Translations under genes and position numbers: made by a program
The notes under the pieces: generated by a model
The model's database searches: none
The model's input: the letters and a program-made list of their open reading frames with translations, nothing else
What the model was told of the DNA's origin: nothing
Part shown: positions 9,320-21,792 of the stretch, piece by piece
How positions within the stretch are numbered: the stretch's first letter is position 1
Layout: every line of letters starts with the position of its first letter
Source: Flavobacterium sediminilitoris
GTDB taxonomy: Bacteria; Bacteroidota; Bacteroidia; Flavobacteriales; Flavobacteriaceae
Direction of reading: 5' to 3'
DNA: 64,000 nt
Assembly: GCF_023008245.1 (NCBI RefSeq)
Contig: NZ_CP090145.1
Location: 2,852,001 to 2,916,000 of the forward strand

Positions 9320-10180
9320 AAGATATTTGTAGCAACTTGATAATAAAAAATAGAGATGACTCAAAAGGCTTGAATAATCCCAGATTATGCCTTAGACTTT
9401 GTTATGAGAGAAAGGGATGCAAAATAGTTGCGAAGTACAGAAGTTTTGACCCACAAATGTAATATTAACTACATTGAGGACGTAAAACCGAATACTGAAG
9501 CAAATATAAAGTAGCCCTTTTTCGTAATAGAACTCTAATGTGTAATTTGAGATAATGAGATATTGTCACTTAATTTCTGTTCTAAATTAAGACTCCTTGT
9601 TTTTCTTTCTTTTTAAAAGAAAAAGAAAGAAAAAATAGTTGCATCCATTATTTTTTTGAACAATCTCCAGTATTTCTTTATAATTTCTGTTTAGCTAGAA
9701 AGGTTATTTTAGCGTTAGTTCGAGTATTTTTTGTGCAATAAAATGGAACAAAAAATGTATCGAGAACATATTAATGATGCTTCTCAATATAATTTCCCTT
9801 CATCCCTCTACGGAAAACCACTCGCCCCGAGGCAAAACCGAATGGAACAAAGCGAAGTGACCGAGAACCAGATTAAACTTACATCAAACTCACGTTATTT
9901 ATGTGTCTGTTAAACCTCAAAAACCCGATGTTAAGCTATTCAAATTCTTACAGTTAAATTACATCTAAAAAACAAACTTTCTTTAAATCACTTTAAAAGA
10001 GATTGAGTCTTTATGTTTTTTCAGATTATTTTAAAAAAGGGGAGTTGTGCAACAGTTACTGCCGTTACCTGCTTCAGAACTATCTTTATTATTAGTAGTT
10101 TTTAAGATGTTTTGATAAAAGTCCTTAAGTTCTTACGGACTCATTATTTTCGCAAATTCAATCATTCTTGTTATGTTAAA
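9320..10180. other. Long spacer without a convincing gene (about 860 bp)
   Basis: No coding frame with family resemblance is found. The single ORF at 9731-9913 has atypical composition and no ribosome-binding context. A perfect 15-bp A/T-only inverted repeat (TTTTTCTTTCTTTTT at 9600-9614, complement at 9620-9634) is the only strong structure. At 10062-10072 CCGTTACCTGC is the exact reverse complement of GCAGGTAACGG at 10183-10193, the outer arm of the first palindromic site of the cassette array, so a decayed extra site may lie at about 10035-10193. Confidence 0.5.
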
Positions 10181-10323
10181 TGGCAGGTAACGGTGCGTAT
10201 AAACGCAGTAGCGGATTATTGTTATGCCTCTGCTTTTCAGGTAACAATATGCTTTAATAAAATGGAATAGCGGGTTAAGATTGTACTTAACCCGCTATTG
10301 CATTTATACATTGTTGTGCACAG
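10181..10323 (-). repeat. attC-like palindromic site E1 after the PhzF-family gene
   Basis: About 142 bp with complementary outer arms: plus-strand left arm GCAGGTAACGGTGCGTATAA and ACGCA, right arm TGCATTTATACATTGTTGTG and CACAG. Reverse-complementing the right arm gives ..ACAACAATGTATAAATGCA, which aligns with ..TAACGGTGCGTATAAACGCA. It begins 7 bp past the stop codon of the phzF-like gene. A perfect 14-bp hairpin (10266-10299) sits inside it. Confidence 0.6.
10266..10299 (-). terminator. Strong hairpin inside site E1, probable terminator
   Basis: Perfect 14-bp stem AATAGCGGGTTAAG / CTTAACCCGCTATT with a 6-nt loop, about 30 bp past the stop of the phzF-like gene. The T run after it is weak (CCATTTTATT on the minus strand), so it may act as a processing or cruciform element of the site instead. 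Confidence 0.55.
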
Positions 10324-10329
10324 ACTTTA

Positions 10330-11214
10330 TCATTCCATTTCAATTATTTTTTGGTCTTTAAGTATCCCTTTTCCACCAGCCATAAGACTATTGATTTTGT
10401 TGTCTTCTATGTCCAAGTCTACTATGATAAGACTGTTAGATGGTTTTTCCATATACTTACCTTGTTGGATTTTGAATGTGTTTTTATTGATTTTAAAAAT
10501 ATCAAATAAATAACAAGCCAAAGGTCCGGCTGCCATCCCTGTACCCGATTCTTCCAAAATACCATAACGAGGACCAAACATTCTGGATGTTGCGTCCAAG
10601 TTTTCGCTTTCCGTTTCATCCGTAAAAACATAATAACCTATCAAGTCAAATTCTGCACTTATCTCACTGATGAGTTCGTAGTTTGGTTTTATGCTAGCCA
10701 GTACTTTACTAGATTTTACCGGAATTATTATAAATGAATTTCCTGTATTAACCAATTTCATAGGAGCGTTTTCGATAAGTTGGCTTTTCTTAAGCCCTAA
10801 TGATTCCAAAATCTGTATTTCTTTGTTCTCTACATCTAAATATCTGGGTGCTGATTGTTCCATAAATGCCAATTCTCCAATGAGCTTAATTCGTCGGTTG
10901 CCGTCAATGGTTTCTTTAGAAGATTCCTCATTGGCTAACCTGCCTAACTGTTTTAGATAAGAGAACGTTGCAACGGTTGCGTGCCCGCAATGTGCAATCT
11001 GTTTTGTCGGGGTGAAAAAGTCCAGTTTAAAATCTGCAAATTGAGAACGGGAAACAAATGCAGTTTCAGAAAGGCCTACTTTTTTCGCAATTTTAAGTTT
11101 GTCTTTTATTGACAGGTTGTCTGCATCAAGAACGACTCCCGCAGGATTACCACCTGAGTTATTTTCTGCAAATGCATTAAGAATCTGTACTGTTATTAAT
11201 TTTTTTTTGTCCAT
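10330..11214 (-). CDS. PhzF-family isomerase/epimerase-like protein (294 aa)
   Basis: The family includes the PhzF trans-2,3-dihydro-3-hydroxyanthranilate isomerase, but most members act on unknown substrates, so a phenazine role should not be assumed. N-terminal signature: VQILNAFAENNSGGNPAGVV, then GLSETAFVSRS with the catalytic Glu of the SETAFV motif, then IAHCGHATVATFSYL. A second-half signature GILEESGTGMAAGPLACYL mirrors the first, as expected for the two-lobed diaminopimelate-epimerase-like fold. The length is normal. It follows a SigZ-like sigma gene 63 bp upstream on the same strand and ends at site E1, so the two genes form one cassette-like block. Confidence 0.85.
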   Translation of the reverse strand: MDKKKLITVQILNAFAENNSGGNPAGVVLDADNLSIKDKLKIAKKVGLSETAFVSRSQFADFKLDFFTPTKQIAHCGHATVATFSYLKQLGRLANEESSKETIDGNRRIKLIGELAFMEQSAPRYLDVENKEIQILESLGLKKSQLIENAPMKLVNTGNSFIIIPVKSSKVLASIKPNYELISEISAEFDLIGYYVFTDETESENLDATSRMFGPRYGILEESGTGMAAGPLACYLFDIFKINKNTFKIQQGKYMEKPSNSLIIVDLDIEDNKINSLMAGGKGILKDQKIIEME

Positions 11215-11277
11215 TGTAAATAATTTTGGATTGTTTAGAAGATGGACGCAAAAGTTTCAAAAAAGACGAAGTTTAAT

Positions 11278-11808
11278 TTAACTTTTTTGGAAACCGAGTA
11301 TATTACCTGAAATATCCGATTCTACATTCGGACAATCAAGAATATCTTCTTTCAGAATATTTCTTGCCTTTTGAACCCTTGATTTTGCACCTGAATAAGA
11401 AAGCTGTACTTGTTGTGCATATTGTTTTTGTGAAAACTTTTTCAAGTAAGTAAGAACGATTGCTTCTTTATATTCTTTTGTAAGATTTTCTATTTTTCTA
11501 TTTATACAGTCAGTAAGTTTTGCATATTCAAAATCTTGATCGTTGTCTTCATTTAAATTCAAGTTTTTCATAAGCACTGAATCATTTTTCTTTTTCCGAT
11601 AATAGTCTATAATCGTGTTTCTGGTAATTTGATATACCCAAGATGTAAGCTTCGATGTTTGCTCAAGTCGATGTAAATTTTCCTGTACTTTAAGAAAGAC
11701 ATCTTGCAAAATGTCTTTTACCGTATTTTCATCTTTAACTTTGGAAAGAATGAAGATATATAACTCTTCGTTTAAATCAATCCATATGGTTTCAATTTTA
11801 TCCTGCAT
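11278..11808 (-). CDS. sigZ: RNA polymerase sigma factor, SigZ type (176 aa)
   Basis: An ECF-class sigma-70 factor. Region 2 spans about residues 10-75 (LQDVFLKVQENLHRLEQTSK, then LTSWVYQITRNTIIDYYRKK), region 4 about 105-160 (LTKEYKEAIVLTYLKKFSQK, then QYAQQVQLSYSGAKSRVQKA). The extra tail with DCPNVESDISGNILGFQKS resembles the C-x-x-x-x-D-x-x-GNI tail that marks the SigZ subgroup. No anti-sigma gene is adjacent; the downstream partner is the PhzF-like gene. Its start lies 12 bp from site E2, so it heads a cassette-like block and may need a promoter inside that site. Confidence 0.85.
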   Translation of the reverse strand: MQDKIETIWIDLNEELYIFILSKVKDENTVKDILQDVFLKVQENLHRLEQTSKLTSWVYQITRNTIIDYYRKKKNDSVLMKNLNLNEDNDQDFEYAKLTDCINRKIENLTKEYKEAIVLTYLKKFSQKQYAQQVQLSYSGAKSRVQKARNILKEDILDCPNVESDISGNILGFQKS

Positions 11809-11819
11809 TTTTTTAGTTT

Positions 11820-11958
11820 GCCACTAATGTTTTGTAGCTAGCCTTTGTGGCGGTGATTCAAGACTAACTTTAGCAAATATAAAATTATTTTGGCTAACTG
11901 CGGTTTTTCAGAAGTAAAAACCAAGCCCAAGTCATTGAGGCTAAATGCTGTTAGCGGT
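11820..11958 (-). repeat. attC-like palindromic site E2 after the frameshifted unknown gene
   Basis: About 139 bp. Left arm (plus) GCCACTAATGTTTTGTAGCT and AGCC; right arm GAGGCTAAATGCTGTTAGCG and GTT. The reverse complement of the right arm, AACCGCTAACAGCATTTAGCC, aligns with CCACTAATGTTTTGTAGCTAGCC with extra unpaired bases on one side. It ends 18 bp from the stop codon of the gene to its right and 12 bp from the start of sigZ on its left. Confidence 0.6.
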
Positions 11959-11976
11959 TCGGTTTACGCACCCAGT

Positions 11977-12469
11977 TTACGTCTTGGTCAACCAACCGAA
12001 AAAAGATTTCTTTTTTCTCAAGCTAAATTTTGTTCCATCGTCTTTATAACCTGAAGGGAAAACAGGACTCTTAATTCCGAAAGGTCCAGTCCCACCTTTT
12101 TGATAATAAAACTCATTAACGTCGTCAGAATAGCGTCCCGAACATAGTAGTTGAAATACTGTATGATCTTTTTTAATTGACTCCACGGATATGTCAATCC
12201 AAACAGGAACTTTGTTTTTACGACATAATAAATCAACAACTTCTGTGGCTGTAACAAGTTCTACTGTTTTGTCGTTGTCGTTTGGATAAATATCGAACTG
12301 CTTTAAGTTTGTTTGGGTCGTCGTGAGAAAAATTAAGCCTAACATTATATTTAAAGTCATTTGGTAAATTGTCTAGAACATAAATTTTTGCAAAGTCAAA
12401 TGCTAACTTAGAGGAGTCTGTGAATAATTTATGAAATTCTGTCTTTGTCATTGAAAATATCATTGTCAT
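11977..12469 (-). pseudogene. Unknown cassette gene broken by a one-base frameshift
   Basis: Two overlapping frames on the minus strand make one protein. The first (from ATG 12469) reads MTMIFSMTKTEFHKLFTDSS through FSHDDPNKLK; the second continues QFDIYPNDNDKTVELVTATE, then VVDLLCRKNKVPVWIDISVE, to KKKSFFGWLTKT. The switch lies at the AAA of CTTAAAGCAGTTC near 12300: removing one A restores a continuous frame (NKLKQFDIYP). The joined product is about 163 residues. The C-terminal part (YYQKGGTGPFGIKSPVFPSG) resembles uncharacterised proteins in mobile cassettes. Mutation, programmed slippage or a sequencing error could all explain it. Confidence 0.6.
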
Positions 12470-12580
12470 TCATCCGAAATTTATTTTCAGACAACTTTTT
12501 CCACGTACATTATCGTAGTTGACCTATCTCTTTTGTTGTAAAGTTTTATTTAAAATTCTTGAGTATTGATTTTTCAGCTT

Positions 12581-12713
12581 GCAGGTAACGGTTTTGTATA
12601 TGAAAAGTAGAGGATTTATCCACTAAGTTTTCGGATTATAACAGACCTTTAATGTATTTATTTTATTTCGATTAAGCGATTAAACTGCTATTTCTTATAA
12701 GCGCTGTTAGCAG
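12581..12713 (-). repeat. attC-like palindromic site E3 after the 194-aa lipoprotein gene
   Basis: About 133 bp. Left arm (plus) GCAGGTAACGGTTTTGTATA and TGAAAAGTAG; right arm CTGCTATTTCTTATAAGCGC and TGTTAGCAG. The reverse complement of the right arm begins CTGCTAACAGCGCTTATAAG and aligns with the left arm. It starts 7 bp past the stop codon of the gene ending at 12721. Confidence 0.6.
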
Positions 12714-12720
12714 AAGATTT

Positions 12721-13305
12721 TTAAATAATATTTAGAGCTTTCTTCTGTTGCTCAGTTAAGTTCCATTTCTCTTGTATATCCAAATTTAATAAAATGCAAT
12801 TTATTTTTAAATTTGAATTTGAATTTGACTTTTTTAACTGATTATACCATTCAAATGATTGTTCATTAAATTTATCAACAAATTTTGCCCAATTAATTAT
12901 AACATAAATATTATTTTTTTCTGTTAAATCTTGATGTAATGGAGAAATATATTTAAGCCAATCATTGATAGTTACGTTTTTATTAAATTTTAAAGAATTG
13001 ATTTTTTCAATTTCATTAATAACCTGCGAACATTCATTATCATTAAATCTGTTTTTAACCAAATAACCATTAGAATTAAAGAATAAAATCTCAGGGACTT
13101 GAAGTTTATCATTATTGTTAAGGTAAACAAAACTATTAAAATCTTTAATAGTATATAAATCATTTTCTTCTAATTTTACTTCATTGTCAATAAGGTAGTT
13201 GTTTAAGGTTTCTTTGTTTTCAATTGTGAAAGAAATTGATATATTTTTTTGTGCAGAGCAAGAGATAAAAATGATAAAGAAAAAAAGTTGTATTAATTTA
13301 CTCAT
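12721..13305 (-). CDS. Predicted lipoprotein, unknown function (194 aa)
   Basis: Signal MSKLIQLFFFIIFISCSAQK with Cys16 as the lipobox cysteine. The mature part is acidic and asparagine-rich, with LQVPEILFFNSNGYLVKNRF in the middle, which could be one strand-helix unit of a thioredoxin-like fold without the CXXC motif; I do not recognise a family. It lies downstream of the 169-residue lipoprotein gene with a terminator-like hairpin between them, and both fall in the block bounded by sites E3 and E4, so they probably moved together. Confidence 0.55.
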   Translation of the reverse strand: MSKLIQLFFFIIFISCSAQKNISISFTIENKETLNNYLIDNEVKLEENDLYTIKDFNSFVYLNNNDKLQVPEILFFNSNGYLVKNRFNDNECSQVINEIEKINSLKFNKNVTINDWLKYISPLHQDLTEKNNIYVIINWAKFVDKFNEQSFEWYNQLKKSNSNSNLKINCILLNLDIQEKWNLTEQQKKALNII

Positions 13306-13317
13306 AGTTAATAATTT

Positions 13318-13351
13318 AAAATCCCTGCTTTGTTTACAAAACAGGGATTTA
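13318..13351 (-). terminator. Hairpin between the two lipoprotein genes
   Basis: Stem AAATCCCTG (13319-13327) / CAGGGATTT (13342-13350). It follows the upstream gene's stop (13360) and precedes the next gene's ATG (13305), so it should end or attenuate transcription between them. Confidence 0.6.
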
Positions 13352-13359
13352 TTATTTAA

Positions 13360-13869
13360 TTAATTAGATATTTTTACTTCAAACATTGAGTTTGATTCAT
13401 TTTTAATGAAAGTATATTGACCTGCTTTGATAGTAAAATTATCTGACAAACCCAAGTTGTCAGTTTCTTCTTTATCAATTGTGTAATTTTCTTCTAAAAT
13501 TAGATATTTACCTCCATATTCTTTAATAATATCTCTCATGTTTTCTTCATCAACTTGAAGGATAAAATTATTAGAATCAATATTCTTTATGTTAGCAGCA
13601 AACATTCTATTACCATATACTGTTGCTTCAAGAGATTCTACTTTAATTTTAACTTTTTTCAGCTTACATATCCCAAGTCTAAAGCAATTCATTGATTTTC
13701 TACCAATTGTCCATACAGTTGTCACACTGCCACCTCCATCTTCTTTTAAAAATGATGTGTCATTTTTAAAAGCTTCACGTTCTAAATTCTCAGTATCTTC
13801 GTTTGAAGAGCAACTTGTAGTTAAAATTAAGCTTGTAATGATTCCAAGTGTTAAAAAAACTTTTTTCAT
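13360..13869 (-). CDS. Predicted lipoprotein, unknown function (169 aa)
   Basis: Signal MKKVFLTLGIITSLILTTSC, lipidated at Cys20 and followed by SSNEDTEN. The mature part has a GGGSV stretch near residue 46 and two cysteines in MNCFRLGICKLKKVKIKVES. The C-terminal part is beta-rich (FTIKAGQYTFIKNESNSMFE). No family is recognised. It is the first gene of the E4-E3 cassette-like block; its ATG is about 85 bp from site E4. Confidence 0.55.
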   Translation of the reverse strand: MKKVFLTLGIITSLILTTSCSSNEDTENLEREAFKNDTSFLKEDGGGSVTTVWTIGRKSMNCFRLGICKLKKVKIKVESLEATVYGNRMFAANIKNIDSNNFILQVDEENMRDIIKEYGGKYLILEENYTIDKEETDNLGLSDNFTIKAGQYTFIKNESNSMFEVKISN

Positions 13870-13954
13870 AAAATATAAGTTAATTGTTAATAATAGTGAG
13901 AAAACGTTATGTCAGAAATTTTATTATCTAAATGCAGAATGTTTGTTTAATTTT

Positions 13955-14087
13955 CTGCTAACATTTTGCAGCTTGGCACAGTAACAGCTGCATGAACAAT
14001 TATTTTCTGTTAAAGATAAAATTTATTGCGAAATGTAAACGTTTATTTACTACAAAATTCGCAATCTTGCCAAGCGCTTGTTAGCAG
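13955..14087 (-). repeat. attC-like palindromic site E4 after the DUF6193-like gene (best preserved)
   Basis: 133 bp. Left arm (plus) CTGCTAACATTTTGCAGCTT then GGCA; right arm TGCCAAGCGCTTGTTAGCAG. The reverse complement of the right arm, CTGCTAACAAGCGCTTGGCA, matches the left arm except for an unpaired insertion in the left arm, the asymmetry expected of extrahelical bases in integron attC sites. The conserved AAC and GTT triplets are present. It ends 9 bp from the stop codon at 14096. Confidence 0.7.
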
Positions 14088-14095
14088 TAGGTTTT

Positions 14096-14908
14096 TTAAT
14101 CATCTGCGGTTCCTTTTCTTGCTGGCTCAATATTGTCTGGCAAATTTGCTTTTACAATTTTTAGTGCTTCTTCTGCATTTCCTTCGCCAAGGTATTCATT
14201 TCTATTTTTTGTCACTACAAACTGAATTTCAAATCTATTAATATCCAGCTCATTAATCCTTTTTGCTCCTTTAATAGGGAAGTAGTTCTCAAATTGTTTT
14301 GGTGTCACATTTGGTAAATCAAGTGTGTCGTATGGATAACCTGTACATCTGCTAAAACATAAGGTGTACAGACTTGTAAAAGGAAATAACTTATTTAAAA
14401 TGTTGTCATTAATTGCAAGTTTAAGAAAAGCATTAAGTTCAGTTCTCGGTTTTGATTGGTCGTTCAGAATTAAGTTCCAAGCATATTCTACTTCTTTATT
14501 TTCGTCAAATGCAAATGCTTTGTCGTTTGGCAGTACAAATAAGAATTTGTCAGCGAGTTCTTTTGTAGAAATGTCGTTGCATAGCCAAAAATCTATAACT
14601 TGAGCGAGTTCTGAAATGTCTTTAGTCTGACCATTTGCAAGACAAACACCCTCTTTCCAAAAGTCAGATAAATATATTTTTTCTTCTGCACTAATGTAAA
14701 CTTGTGAAAACCTGTGACCGTTTTCAATTCTTGCATATGTCAATGGAATTTTATCCAATTCATTGTCTTGAGAAACTTTTAAAGTTGAATTAAGCTTTTT
14801 TAATTCAATATCTATTGCATTACGGAGTCCACCAACATTTTCCAACTCGGGATACATTTTCTGAATAGTTGTCTTTGATTTAAAAATATTTAAAAATTTC
14901 TTCCACAT
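14096..14908 (-). CDS. DUF6193-like protein (270 aa)
   Basis: The central part (about residues 25-155) reads YPELENVGGLRNAIDIELKK, VYISAEEKIYLSDFWKEGVC, LANGQTKDISELAQVIDFWL, then ELADKFLFVLPNDKAFAFDE and VEYAWNLIL. This resembles the DUF6193 family, whose members occur near natural-product and polymorphic-toxin loci and in mobile cassettes; no reaction is known. The C-terminal third (TLCFSRCTGYPYDTLDLPNV through NEYLGEGNAEEALKIVKANL) looks like a second small domain. There is no signal peptide. It forms a single-gene block between sites E4 and E5. Confidence 0.5.
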   Translation of the reverse strand: MWKKFLNIFKSKTTIQKMYPELENVGGLRNAIDIELKKLNSTLKVSQDNELDKIPLTYARIENGHRFSQVYISAEEKIYLSDFWKEGVCLANGQTKDISELAQVIDFWLCNDISTKELADKFLFVLPNDKAFAFDENKEVEYAWNLILNDQSKPRTELNAFLKLAINDNILNKLFPFTSLYTLCFSRCTGYPYDTLDLPNVTPKQFENYFPIKGAKRINELDINRFEIQFVVTKNRNEYLGEGNAEEALKIVKANLPDNIEPARKGTADD

Positions 14909-14940
14909 TTTAGTTATCTGTTAGTGTCGCACTAAACTTA

Positions 14941-15076
14941 CTGCTAACGGTCTCGGTTATGTGCAGTGGCGTGGTTTAGCGTTAAACTTAGCTAGTATAC
15001 ACCAAATTGAAAATCCGTGAGGATTTTCAGAAGTAGGCGAGAACAAGCAATTACTTATGGCCATTGTTGTGCGACG
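14941..15076 (-). repeat. attC-like palindromic site E5 after the intradiol dioxygenase gene
   Basis: About 136 bp. Left arm (plus) CTGCTAACGGTCTCGGTTAT and GTGCAGT; right arm ACTTATGGCCATTGTTGTGC and GAC. The reverse complement of the right arm, GTCGCACAACAATGGCCATAAGT, aligns with TAACGGTCTCGGTTATGTGCAG. An inner GAAAATCC/GGATTTTC hairpin is present. It ends 7 bp past the stop codon at 15083. Confidence 0.6.
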
Positions 15077-15082
15077 TTTTTT

Positions 15083-15721
15083 TTATTCATAATCTGGAAT
15101 GTTTAGCCCCAATATTAAATTTCTATTGGCTGTCCAAATTCCAAATTCCATTTTTAGTTTTACGATTCCAGAACCACCTCTATTTTTATTCAATTGTTTT
15201 TTTTTTGCTGTTAGTTTAGGGTCACTTTCAAAAAAATAACTATCAATATAATAGGAAATAGTATTAGGTTCTTTCACATAAATATGAATATGTTCAGGTT
15301 CTTGAACTTTCGGATATGGCGCTGGTCTGAAGGTATAAAAAGTAAATTTTCCGTCTTTGCCTGTTTTTAACCACCCTCGATATTGTCCGTGAGTTTTTTC
15401 CCAACCAATAGGTTTTTCACTTGGTTGATAAACTCCATTTAGGTCAGTGTGATAAATGTATAGTATTACATTTTCTGCTGGTGTTTTTCCGTCTTTTTGA
15501 AATACAGTTCCTGTTATTTTTATTTTTGGCTCATTATTTTCAAAGCCTGGCAAAGTATCAGTTGATTTTGGTTTAATATTCAGCTCTTTAAAATCTAAAA
15601 CTGCTTCACAATCTTGACAAGGTCCTCCAACATTTCTTTCAATATTAGAGTTTGATTGCCCTTTACAGGAACAAACAAAAAAAGTCAATAATAACATTCC
15701 TAAGTATATTTTCATTCTCAA
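15083..15721 (-). CDS. Intradiol ring-cleavage dioxygenase-like lipoprotein (212 aa)
   Basis: It resembles protocatechuate 3,4-dioxygenase beta chains but is short and exported. Signal with lipobox near residue 19 (TFFVCSCKGQ). The carboxypeptidase-regulatory-like beta core (KITGTVFQKDGKTPAENVIL) leads into YIYHTDLNGVYQPSEK, GQYRGWLKTGKDGKFTFYTF, RPAPYPKVQEPEHIHIYVKE. The Tyr residues in GVYQP and QYRGW and the two His of EHIHIYV fit the Fe(III) ligands (two Tyr, two His). The cell-surface location and small size make the true substrate uncertain. It is the first block of the cassette-like array on this strand. Confidence 0.75.
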   Translation of the reverse strand: MRMKIYLGMLLLTFFVCSCKGQSNSNIERNVGGPCQDCEAVLDFKELNIKPKSTDTLPGFENNEPKIKITGTVFQKDGKTPAENVILYIYHTDLNGVYQPSEKPIGWEKTHGQYRGWLKTGKDGKFTFYTFRPAPYPKVQEPEHIHIYVKEPNTISYYIDSYFFESDPKLTAKKKQLNKNRGGSGIVKLKMEFGIWTANRNLILGLNIPDYE

Positions 15722-16212
15722 TGTTTTTCAAATGTTGCACAATCTGTTTATAGGTACTACATATATAGCATTTTTCATATTACAATTATCAACTAGATTT
15801 TCTATTTATCTTAAACTTTACAGAAGTCTTCTTAGAAGAATATTCTTTTGGTTTACTTCTAAATTCACATAGTGAATAAATTGTAATTGAAGGGCCTAGC
15901 TATTCTTTTCTACAAACTTAAACCATTCCTCACAAACACACAATACGTATAAATACGTACAAAAGACAATTCCATCTCTTTTTCAAAGATAATGCAGTGC
16001 TTTTTTAATTTTTTACGGAAAACAGTAAACAAGAAAAAAAATCAGGAGTGCTATGTTATGTACTCTCCATTTGTATCACTTCCCTCAAAGAGCGTTTTGT
16101 AGTTTCGTTGGCTATCCCTTTTAGCTTAAACCCAGAGTTTCTAATCCCTATTTGGGATTATTACACTTGTAGGTAATACATAATTAGGATTTGGCTCACT
16201 TTTATAATAAAA
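15722..16212. other. Spacer at the right end of the cassette-like array, no gene seen
   Basis: About 490 bp of AT-rich DNA. No coding frame, RNA gene or palindromic site like E1-E5 was recognised. A small repeat AATCCCTATTTGGGATT near 16150 is a weak hairpin. The region should hold the promoter of the dioxygenase gene and marks the edge of the array. Confidence 0.4.
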
Positions 16213-18648: not shown

Positions 18649-20205
18649 TTAATCAAAGATAGTAAAATTATAAGCACCAATATCAGTAGGGTTTATTCTT
18701 GGATATCCTAGAATATCATTTGTTCCAGATGAGAAATTAAAATCTGCACTTCCTTTTGCAGCCGAATTTTCACCTATATATAATTGATTATCATTTGGGT
18801 TTTTAAAATCCGGTTTATTCGTGTTTGAATTTGTAGCAATTAGACAATTTGTGTATTTACTTCCTGTAAATTGATATTCTGGATGCGATGAAAACTGATT
18901 ACTAAAATCATTAAATTTTATTAAACAATTATTAAACTGATAATTAAAATTAGAGTCACTTCCTTCTTTTTTTAATGAGATAGAATAGTTGGTAGAACTG
19001 TAAATAAGACAATTGTTGAAATTAGCCTGTGTTAAAGCATAAATAGGATTACCATCATAATCATCAATTACGATAGCAGTTTGATTTGGAGTAGGCCAAT
19101 AGTTAGCAAAAGTACAATGAGTAAAATCATAGTTTCCTCCAAATGTACAAGCTAAACTAGACTGTCCAGAATTATTGATGACTATGTTTGAACCTGTAAT
19201 ATTACCTGTTCTGGCTAAAATTCCGACGTTACTAGAATTGTATATTTGAACATTGTTCATGGTTAGTGTTGGAATGTTTGTTTCATCATTTCCTGTTACT
19301 AAAAAGCCTACAGTTGCATTTTTTAAGGTTAAATTAGTAATAGTATTATTAACACTTCCTTTAGTTAACCATATCGTTCCCCATTGCCCAGGTATTTCTG
19401 AAAAATTAGGTTCTAAACGATCTCCTTCAAAAATAACTTCATTTTCTAAATCATCAGTATTTGAAAGGGTTCCATTAACTTGTAAAGATGCGTTATTTGC
19501 AACTATTAACCCTGATTCGGCATGAAAATGTACTCTTGCTCCAGCATCTACAATAAGCGTTTTATTTGAAGGAACAACTGCATAACCATATATTACATAA
19601 GGTTTCAAATTGGTCATGTGCAATTCATTTCCGTTAATCGGATCCGTCTCGTCGAGTACAGTTCCTCTAATTTCAATAGGATTTCCATCGTTATCTATTC
19701 CTAAATTTATTGTTTCATAAGTAAAACTCTCATCAGGATTTTGTGTTCTTTGAGGATATATGAAATAAGCATCTTGAATTAATGTTACTAATTCTACTTC
19801 TTGAGTTTGGCTACCTTCACCAAATAAAATAGTATCAGTATATAAAAAATCAGTTGGATCTGTGTCTATGACATCAGCAGTAACTTCAATAAAAATATAC
19901 ATACTATCTTTGGCTAACATTTCAACACCTTCAAATACTTTTCCAGGAACACCATCTACCATTAATCGATATTTTGAATTATTTCCATTGCCTAATTGTA
20001 TTTTTGGAATCGAAATATTCTTATTACTTTTATTATAAACCTTTAAAGTGTATGTACTTGAACCAATATTTGTGAAAACAGTATCTAAATACACAGTATC
20101 TTTTGAAAAAGCTAAATTTCCAGTACTCGATTCAAAGTCAAAATCATTTCTACAAGAATAGAAAACAGTAAATAATAAGATGAATATATAAAAGTAATTT
20201 TTCAT
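18649..20205 (-). CDS. Lipoprotein with parallel beta-helix repeats (518 aa)
   Basis: Signal ending in the lipobox VFYSCRN. Residues about 30-215 carry two beta-sandwich-like blocks (SKDTVYLDTVFTNIGSSTYT). From about 215 to 480 the sequence is a run of short coils (HFHAESGLIVANNASLQVNG, TNLTLKNATVGFLVTGNDET, NVQIYNSSNVGILARTG, NFNNCLIYSSTNYSISLKKE) typical of right-handed beta-helix folds. The end matches a usual close (RINPTDIGAYNF). No catalytic residues for a polysaccharide lyase can be picked out, so surface binding is as likely as catalysis. It is likely co-transcribed with the DUF1579 gene (34-bp gap). Confidence 0.8.
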   Translation of the reverse strand: MKNYFYIFILLFTVFYSCRNDFDFESSTGNLAFSKDTVYLDTVFTNIGSSTYTLKVYNKSNKNISIPKIQLGNGNNSKYRLMVDGVPGKVFEGVEMLAKDSMYIFIEVTADVIDTDPTDFLYTDTILFGEGSQTQEVELVTLIQDAYFIYPQRTQNPDESFTYETINLGIDNDGNPIEIRGTVLDETDPINGNELHMTNLKPYVIYGYAVVPSNKTLIVDAGARVHFHAESGLIVANNASLQVNGTLSNTDDLENEVIFEGDRLEPNFSEIPGQWGTIWLTKGSVNNTITNLTLKNATVGFLVTGNDETNIPTLTMNNVQIYNSSNVGILARTGNITGSNIVINNSGQSSLACTFGGNYDFTHCTFANYWPTPNQTAIVIDDYDGNPIYALTQANFNNCLIYSSTNYSISLKKEGSDSNFNYQFNNCLIKFNDFSNQFSSHPEYQFTGSKYTNCLIATNSNTNKPDFKNPNDNQLYIGENSAAKGSADFNFSSGTNDILGYPRINPTDIGAYNFTIFD

Positions 20206-20760: not shown

Positions 20761-21792
20761 ATGCAGAGGATTTTATACGAAGCGAAAACGCAAATTAAAA
20801 AAGAATTACCTTTTGTTTTATATGCAAATCCTAATTCTAATAAATTAAATGCTTATTTTCAAAAAAATGATGAATTAGAAGTTTTTAAAGGACAATCTGG
20901 ATTTGTTTTTGCTCCATTTTCTAATACTGAATCATACATTATTAGTCTTAGCAATAGTAATTTTCTTTCGGAATCTATTGAAGAAATTGAAATTGAAAAT
21001 ATCTTACTTGATATAAGTATTGATCAAAAAGCTAAAAAAAACTTTGAAGATTTAGTTAATAAAGGAATTGTAGAAATTAATAATAATCTTTTTGAAAAAG
21101 TAGTTTTATCAAGAAAAGTAGTAGTTCCTGTAAAAATGGATTTTGAAGCTACTTTTTTAAGATTATTACAGAGCTATAACACTGCTTTTAGGTATCTTTT
21201 TTATCATCCAAAAATTGGAATGTGGATGGGAGCAACACCAGAACAATTACTTAAAGTAGAAGGGGACAAGATAAGTACAGTTGCATTAGCAGGAACACAG
21301 TTGTACAAAGATTCATTAATATGGGAAGAAAAAGAATTGCAAGAACAACAATTTGTGAGCGATTTTATTATTCATGAAATTACACCTTTTGTAAAGAATA
21401 TTACAATTTCCGAACCTTTTACGGCAAAAGCAGGAACACTAGCACATATTAAAACAACGATAAGTGCTTATTTAAAAGAAAAAGAATCTGCGAATAAATT
21501 ATTATTTCAAATACACCCAACACCAGCAGTATGCGGATTACCTAAAAAAGAAGCAATGGCTTTTGTGTTGCAAAATGAAGGATATGATAGAAAATTTTAC
21601 TCTGGTTTTTTAGGAGAGTGGAATATTAAGGATGAATCCAATTTGTTTGTTAATTTAAGATGTATGGAAGTTGAAGAAGAGAAAATTAACCTATATGTAG
21701 GATGTGGAATTACAAAAGATAGTAATCCAGAAAAAGAATTTTTTGAAACAGAAAATAAATTAGTTACAATGCTAAAAATAATAAAAGTATAA
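20761..21792 (+). CDS. menF: Isochorismate synthase / chorismate-binding enzyme (343 aa)
   Basis: The chorismate-utilising domain fills residues about 95-340: FEKVVLSRKVVVPVK, MGATPEQLLKVEGDKISTVA, LAGTQLYKDS, QFVSDFIIHEITPFV, LFQIHPTPAVCGLPKKEAMA, FYSGFLGEWNIKDESNLFVN, LYVGCGITKDSNPEKEF. The HPTPAVCG and GCGI blocks bind Mg and chorismate. It converts chorismate to isochorismate for menaquinone, given the neighbouring thioesterase; a siderophore role is not supported because no other siderophore gene is near. The length fits. Confidence 0.88.
   Translation: MQRILYEAKTQIKKELPFVLYANPNSNKLNAYFQKNDELEVFKGQSGFVFAPFSNTESYIISLSNSNFLSESIEEIEIENILLDISIDQKAKKNFEDLVNKGIVEINNNLFEKVVLSRKVVVPVKMDFEATFLRLLQSYNTAFRYLFYHPKIGMWMGATPEQLLKVEGDKISTVALAGTQLYKDSLIWEEKELQEQQFVSDFIIHEITPFVKNITISEPFTAKAGTLAHIKTTISAYLKEKESANKLLFQIHPTPAVCGLPKKEAMAFVLQNEGYDRKFYSGFLGEWNIKDESNLFVNLRCMEVEEEKINLYVGCGITKDSNPEKEFFETENKLVTMLKIIKV

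Follow-up and report, generated by a model that had tools for sequence, protein, structure and literature searches.

A 64,000-nt stretch of the Flavobacterium sediminilitoris genome (contig NZ_CP090145.1, positions 2,852,001 to 2,916,000 of the forward strand; hereafter, the window) carries five consecutive gene blocks on its minus strand, each ending in a long imperfect palindrome (sites E1 to E5). This cluster is very likely a relic array of gene cassettes, belonging to an integron-like system of Bacteroidota that has its own recombinase and its own sites. At the level of sequence, support comes from a family of related sites, covariation between the arms of those sites, complementarity between the head and tail of cassettes, the order integrase-attI-array, and the occurrence of one cassette in different contexts. 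From this evidence we infer that the array integrase catalyzes recombination, that the sites fold as single strands, and that the window cluster was stranded after its integrase decayed.

Complete copies of the system have a XerA-like tyrosine recombinase at the head of the array, with an attI-like site ending in GTT adjoining the integrase gene. A cassette is made up of a head (TT plus a variable 7-mer), usually one gene in array orientation, and a palindromic site; the left outer box of this site and the head of the same cassette are complementary. In the proposed mechanism, excision would join head and tail into a circle carrying a complete site, and reinsertion would take place at a GTT (sometimes ATT) crossover core. 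Recognition by the integrase probably depends on the folded shape of the site, given that arm sequences covary and that the 7-mers are not the same from cassette to cassette; the same arm covariation suggests recombination of single strands.

Cassette ends and the recombination site family

If cassettes move as circles opened at GTT, the head of a cassette (the bases after the upstream GTT) should be complementary to its own tail (the bases before the AAC of its own site), and not to the tail of the array site that it touches. The test set consisted of the 188 sites, from 203 model matches, that have a clear AAC and GTT; two of them are minus-strand matches, at palindromic sites, that do not delimit a cassette. 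Neighboring same-strand sites less than 4 kb apart defined 150 cassettes, with a complementary run of at least 6 as the criterion. Such runs were found in 113/150 cassettes, as compared with 2/188 within single sites, 1.7% of shuffled pairs, and 19 of 1202 pairings with other tails of the same locus. Agreement between head and tail was 0.85-0.92 at positions 1-6, 0.71 at position 7, 0.01 at position 8, 0.75-0.89 at positions 9-11, and 0.22 at position 12. Position 8 is a near-invariant mismatch, with A in the head of all 113 matched cassettes and C in the tail of 98 of them. The 150 heads include 95 distinct 7-mers, and the outer box is therefore not a fixed binding sequence. In nine further loci, eight from outside the family and one from the genus of the window, runs matched in 17 of 23 cassettes (three of the 23 from the same-genus locus) versus 0 of 42 same-site comparisons. 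A de novo search for the GTT-N7 signature, made without a site model, rose above the top of 20 shuffles only in loci L104 and L107 and in 3 of 17 other loci.

The cassettes delimited in this way have a median length of 888 bp. Their longest open reading frame runs in array orientation in 140/150 cases and in the opposite orientation in seven, and three cassettes have no frame of 40 aa. Among the 140 cassettes with the longest frame in array orientation, the stop codon lies within -10 to 40 of the AAC in 96.

The site family was described with a structure model, R1, trained on 41 sites, all from other genomes. These were gathered with a search pattern derived from E1 and E3 (right arm), such that E1 and E3 are not wholly independent of the model. 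The pattern occurs in 120 of 299 family genomes, versus 18 of 299 for the reversed pattern, and in 20 stretches of named genomes, mostly Flavobacteriaceae. From 47 extracted sites, six that were long or badly bounded were dropped and 41 were aligned, one of them after being re-cut. The arms of the common site type read AAC-N3-GTATAT-A-AAAA-A-TAGCGG / CCGCTA-C-TTTT-C-ATATAC-N6-GTT. In the 41-site alignment, 95.3% of cells are paired, falling to 27-41% when the partners are slid, and there are 59 double changes versus 14.4 in shuffled data. An alignment of 103 sites from integrase arrays, which had been fitted to the structure model, has 92.0% paired cells and 381 double changes versus 113.7 shuffled.

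The outer-box consensus of attC sites is RYYYAAC / GTTRRRY. The right box agrees with it in 11/188 sites, the left box in 12/188, and both boxes in only 1/188, bearing out the claim, made in a preliminary description of the window, that the outer boxes differ from attC. One site type, represented in the window by E4, is homogeneous within the genus: 12 same-genus sites, a set made up without two copies from the genome of the window and one site with a degenerate right end, have a mean column identity of 90%, and their flanks are variable. At the start of L035 and near position 6537 of L052, in two genomes, the same foreign sequence (recognized by eye) replaces the left arm of a site; this may be one end of an insertion sequence with these sites as its target.

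Of 30 single-contig genomes from one Bacteroidota family, 29 carry sites, with 3 to 103 per genome; about 106 candidates were scored per genome, and high counts are therefore lower bounds. A single cassette is shared over its full length by two genomes that belong to different genera (88% identity); the flanks agree at about 51-53%, which in that alignment is what unrelated DNA gives. Most of this cassette is also found in Psychroserpens. A scan of 81 of 84 cassette proteins (three long proteins were left out) matched 74 Pfam families at 1e-4, and the cargo domains include SLATT, CAP12-TIR, AbiEii, KAP NTPase, and reverse transcriptase. In L173 (3798-13657), from the same genus as the window, an integrase array carries large genes that look defense-like by eye (methyltransferase, helicase, reverse transcriptase-like). 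In L104, a tRNA gene (19631-19704) lies about 500 bp past the last detected site of a long array, and a sequence resembling a tRNA 3' end by eye lies at about 4830, just before the first detected site.

The array integrase and its attI-like site

Beside site arrays in the family, searches with TIGR02249, the IntI model, find a tyrosine recombinase about 375-400 aa long. Matches at 1e-10 in 198 of 199 family genomes include ordinary Xer proteins, and the IntI cut-off was passed in 0/199; the six full-length integrases scanned reach 192-216 bits against a cut-off of 265. The array integrase is XerA-like with an extra N-terminal domain, and it is missing the IntI insertion, residues 181-244 of IntI4 facing only 21 profile positions (280-300). 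Among the automatic names of 120 listed closest relatives, 11 are "site-specific tyrosine recombinase/integron integrase".

In ten of eleven loci picked for the proximity of sites, the integrase is codirectional with the sites, which lie downstream of it; the eleventh is divergent, with its sites beyond the integrase start. Independently of proximity, all genes of at least 385 bits were taken from 31 single-contig genomes, giving 31 genes in 23 of the 31 genomes, one with a stop and two without the N-terminal part. A listed site (one of the best 150 of a longer list) lies within 25 kb of 25 of the 31 genes, and all 56 such sites are downstream on the same strand. When the loci of the remaining six genes were fetched, downstream same-strand sites were found in all of them. 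By comparison, 8 of 90 other recombinase matches outside the genome of the window are near a listed site, and two of these eight have downstream same-strand sites, one being inside a long array and the other a 171-bp fragment. G023, the only one of the 30 genomes without sites, has no such integrase. Complete genomes hold further recombinases of about 300 aa, presumably the host XerC and XerD. Altogether, the integrase is codirectional with the cassettes in 31/32 loci, L105 being divergent.

For the attI-like start, the tail of the first detected site was used to look for the corresponding head near the integrase gene. With at most one mismatch in 7, the head lies within 200 bp of the gene in 25/32 loci, versus 33 of 992 trials with foreign tails; 24/32 remain if only the best match per locus is counted, and exact matches were found in 13/32 versus 3/992. 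In L105, this head lies on the start side of the integrase gene. Several of the attI-like sites (e.g., in L104, L108, L109, L119, L120, and L121) are themselves palindromes with a different sequence, after which come 5-6 nt and GTT.

The integrase profile matches at an E value of 1e-75 or better in 92 of 296 Bacteroidota genomes, in many cases with an alignment that starts only around position 100. With R1 (E<=0.05), downstream same-strand sites were found in 15 of 18 such loci with enough sequence, of which 17 are from outside the family and one from the genus of the window; two more loci were too short. A Chryseobacterium plasmid and a Rufibacter plasmid each carry the integrase and four downstream sites. 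A Parabacteroides plasmid (L215, 5725-12810) has an integrase relative at the head of immunity-type genes (Tdi1, SMI1/KNR4) that are separated by intergenic hairpins. These short hairpins were unseen by R1 (best E 0.32); when they are picked by eye, the head/tail rule fits in 7/7 cases with an ATT core, and there is an attI-like start with a run of 6. On an Acinetobacter baylyi plasmid (L214, 2543-4564), a truncated integrase relative, 53.8% identical over 230 aa, lies directly upstream of tet(X3) on the same strand, the place of a first cassette. No sites were found near this tet(X3)-linked recombinase (best E 2.5).

The window cluster and its genome

Read along the minus strand, the cluster consists of a dioxygenase-like gene, E5, DUF6193, E4, two lipoprotein-like genes, and E3, followed by an unknown gene in two frames, E2, a sigma factor with a PhzF-like gene, and E1 (Table 1). 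The preliminary description reported five palindromes of 133-142 bp close to the stop codon with which the last gene of a block ends, with all genes in one orientation. These features were recovered: all five palindromes are present on the minus strand with an AAC..GTT span of 122-127 nt (136-141 nt with the 7-nt outer boxes), each AAC lies 12-24 nt 3' of the stop codon, and all genes of the cluster share the minus strand. The AAC and GTT triplets it described are present in E1, E3, E4, and E5; the right triplet of E2 is ATT.

Table 1. Positions of the sites, cassettes, and blocks of the window cluster
Feature	Position in window	Strand	Details
E1, recombination site after the sigma factor/PhzF block	10189..10315	-	127 nt; R1 84.9 bits, E 1.6e-17
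E2, decayed site, AAC..ATT	11826..11952	-	127 nt; missed by R1; similar copies in a same-genus genome
E3, recombination site	12587..12708	-	122 nt; R1 110.2 bits, E 1.9e-23
E4, site of the genus's own homogeneous type	13960..14082	-	123 nt; R1 E 2.8e-4; genus-type site model R2 94.6 bits, E 1.4e-28
E5, recombination site	14946..15068	-	123 nt; R1 64.3 bits, E 1.1e-12
Cassette 1: dioxygenase-like lipoprotein gene (15083-15721) and E5	14948..15742	-	head near 15742
Cassette 2: DUF6193 gene (14096-14908) and E4	13962..14947	-	head/tail run 7, identity 11/12
Cassette 3: two lipoprotein-like genes (13360-13869, 12721-13305) and E3	12589..13961	-	head/tail run 7, identity 10/12
Block 4: unknown gene, two overlapping frames (12233-12469, 11977-12360), and E2	11828..12588	-	head/tail mismatch, run 1
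Block 5: sigma-70-like factor (11278-11808), PhzF-like enzyme (10330-11214), and E1	10191..11827	-	head/tail mismatch, run 0
Upstream end of the cluster	15738..15785	-	terminates ACCTATAAACAG/ATT; weak resemblance, by eye, to right ends of attI-like sites

Palindromy alone is not above chance in the window. A scan for AAC/GTT arms ranked E1 at the top with a score of 12, and one of three shuffled windows reached 14; E2-E5 are absent among the 20 arm-scan matches with a score of at least 9, and an inverted-repeat scan of the window picked up only one arm inside E1. The case rests on relatives of these sites. A structure model applied to the five sites, as the preliminary description had suggested, detected four of them: R1 found E3, E1, E5, and E4, the next match in the window having an E value of only 0.29, and it missed E2 (6.3 bits, E 0.27 for 401 bases with filters off). 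DNA searches found copies of E2 at two places of one same-genus genome (89% and 87% identity) and in its own genome (80% and 70%). Copies of E5 at 77-87% identity are present in same-genus genomes and elsewhere in its own genome.

The junctions E5-E4 and E4-E3 delimit cassettes whose head and tail agree at 7/7 positions with the mismatch at position 8. The head of cassette 1 was sought over 3 kb with a 4-base seed and extended by eye; following ATT, it matches the tail of E5 at 6/7 positions, with the usual mismatch at position 8. The lipoprotein-like genes of cassette 3 match no Pfam family. A search for the DUF6193 cassette in 248 other family genomes came back empty at 1e-15. A flanking nuclease was considered as a synteny marker for an empty-site test and was unusable, being present in several copies in some genomes. 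A second dioxygenase-like gene, 39.5% identical to that of the window over 205 aa, directly precedes a partial site match in another array of the same genome (L073, 6300-7517). Elsewhere in the window, positions 9713-9768 hold a separate dispersed repeat of about 55 nt, which recurs in many same-genus genomes, mostly at 86-94% identity and at most three times per genome among the matches listed; on the plus strand, the genus-type model R2 has a weak and partial match at positions 21358-21448 (15.4 bits, E 7e-4).

The genome-wide search gave 46 R1 matches at E<=0.01, two of them partial, to which R2 adds a few of the genus type; 21 of the matches lie in one minus-strand array (2529294-2552161). 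No integrase lies beside that array, the nearest PF00589 matches being at 2270798 and 2940172. An integrase remnant with stops (2941529-2941933) is upstream of, and on the same strand as, an array at 2916174-2934377, and a second remnant (3001668-3002324) has same-strand sites downstream of it, at 2998190 and 2994119. The genome also encodes an intact 267-aa recombinase (L083; L126 7303-8088, i.e., 2243303-2244088), which lacks the N-terminal domain and is divergent from two short site matches. One cassette occurs in two arrays of this genome, 96% identical over the first 583 bp and with a diverged site. The preliminary description offered two readings, an integrase-less cassette cluster or a Bacteroidota-specific system, and each holds in part. 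Locally there is no integrase: of the 11 matches to PF00589 in the genome (E<=0.01), not one falls inside the window; elsewhere, an integrase heads the complete arrays. The window cluster is probably a stranded and slowly decaying piece of an array, in a genome where the search for the full-length type of recombinase turned up only damaged copies.

Alternative explanations and known systems

Several observations weigh against a relic cassette array of this kind. The expectation that blocks are bounded at GTT triplets was borne out at scale and holds for only three of the five window blocks: two break the head/tail rule, and another obeys it only if ATT is accepted for GTT. In two plasmid arrays, 0 of 4 site pairs reach a run of 6 (runs are about 2-5), and the 15/203 sites without a clear AAC or GTT had been dropped. 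The attI-like start was not found in 7/32 integrase loci, and seven complete genomes, including that of the window, carry sites without a full-length integrase. In the genome of the window, ends match in 13/25 cassettes versus 75/91 in integrase loci; this low rate is read as decay, and missed sites could give the same result. Lastly, the intact 267-aa recombinase of this genome might still be active.

It is unlikely, if still worth considering, that the cluster is an ordinary IntI-type cluster of attC sites lacking integron-integrases (CALIN), or an IntI-type chromosomal integron, that has merely diverged. Against this reading, none of 199 genomes passes the IntI cut-off, the IntI insertion is missing from the array integrase (IntI4 residues 181-244 face 21 profile positions), the attC outer-box consensus is present in one of 188 sites, and the integrase is codirectional with the cassettes in 31 of 32 loci. 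The system works like an integron; judged by the IntI model, the insertion, and the outer-box consensus, it is not a member of the IntI family.

The many similar copies per genome, such as those of the E4 type in the genus, and their position just after stop codons could also reflect dispersed palindromic repeats, related to miniature inverted-repeat transposable elements or repetitive extragenic palindromes, that insert behind stop codons. Insertion of a repeat, however, does not make the far upstream end of a gene complementary to the flank of that repeat, as is the case in 113/150 cassettes, and it leaves the single orientation and the integrase at the head unexplained; this explanation is thus highly improbable. 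Slightly less credible still are 3' structured RNAs or gene terminators, with which conserved pairing and the placement of sites after stop codons (96/140 within -10 to 40 of the AAC) would be consistent. At gathering scores, Rfam finds only a tRNA in the window and no match at any of the sites; four array loci searched at E<=0.5 show only sub-threshold microRNA-like hits, near L104 13826-13984, and a tRNA. Moreover, an RNA element or terminator leaves unexplained why the left flank of a site matches bases about 1 kb upstream.

A wider proposal builds on a cassette system with its own recombinase and is held more tentatively, as a possibility that is somewhat less likely than its opposite. It states that the Bacteroidota integron may have evolved from a XerA-like recombinase independently of IntI, that an N-terminal HARP/XPB-like DNA-shape domain would read the folded site together with the conserved mismatches, that attI would be structured, and that one system might account for chromosomal, plasmid, and gut immunity arrays throughout the phylum. 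If the cassette system is real, one of the commonest bacterial phyla captures genes by a major route that has largely escaped counting, as has the cargo of that route, among it proteins with phage-defense and toxin-antitoxin domains. It would also represent a second solution to the problem of reading a folded recombination site, and structure recognition by the integrase would become directly testable. IntegronFinder 2.0 identified one complete integron in Bacteroidetes, in Salinibacter (PMC9024848). In full-text searches of open-access PubMed Central, no published description of the present cassette system was recognized. What is claimed here is the link of sites, attI, and integrase into one cassette system across the phylum.

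The system resembles integrons and CALINs in having an integrase at the head of the array, an attI-like site, one-gene cassettes in a single orientation, and palindromic sites with an AAC..GTT core and an outer box complementary to the cassette's own head. It differs from them in its XerA-like integrase, which carries an additional N-terminal domain and is without the IntI insertion, in outer boxes that depart from RYYYAAC/GTTRRRY, and in attI-like sites several of which are themselves palindromic. In the usual integron, the integrase gene is divergent from the cassettes, whereas the Bacteroidota integrase is codirectional with them. Unlike XerA, XerC, and XerD, the array integrase carries the extra N-terminal domain, and its gene heads cassette arrays. 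The genus-wide homogeneity of sites such as those of the E4 type is reminiscent of the Vibrio cholerae repeats (VCRs) of the Vibrio superintegron; the sequence, the phylum, and the integrase are all different. Ross et al. (2019, Nature) reportedly noted a XerD-like recombinase and a likeness to integrons for the rAID-1 immunity-gene arrays of Bacteroidales. The Parabacteroides plasmid array, possibly of the rAID-1 kind, has an integrase relative at the head of immunity-type genes, and the head/tail rule holds there in 7/7 cases. Compared with arrays of the window type, it has shorter sites (42-46 nt), an ATT core, and immunity-gene cargo. The gut immunity arrays called rAID-1 may be one branch of the cassette system.

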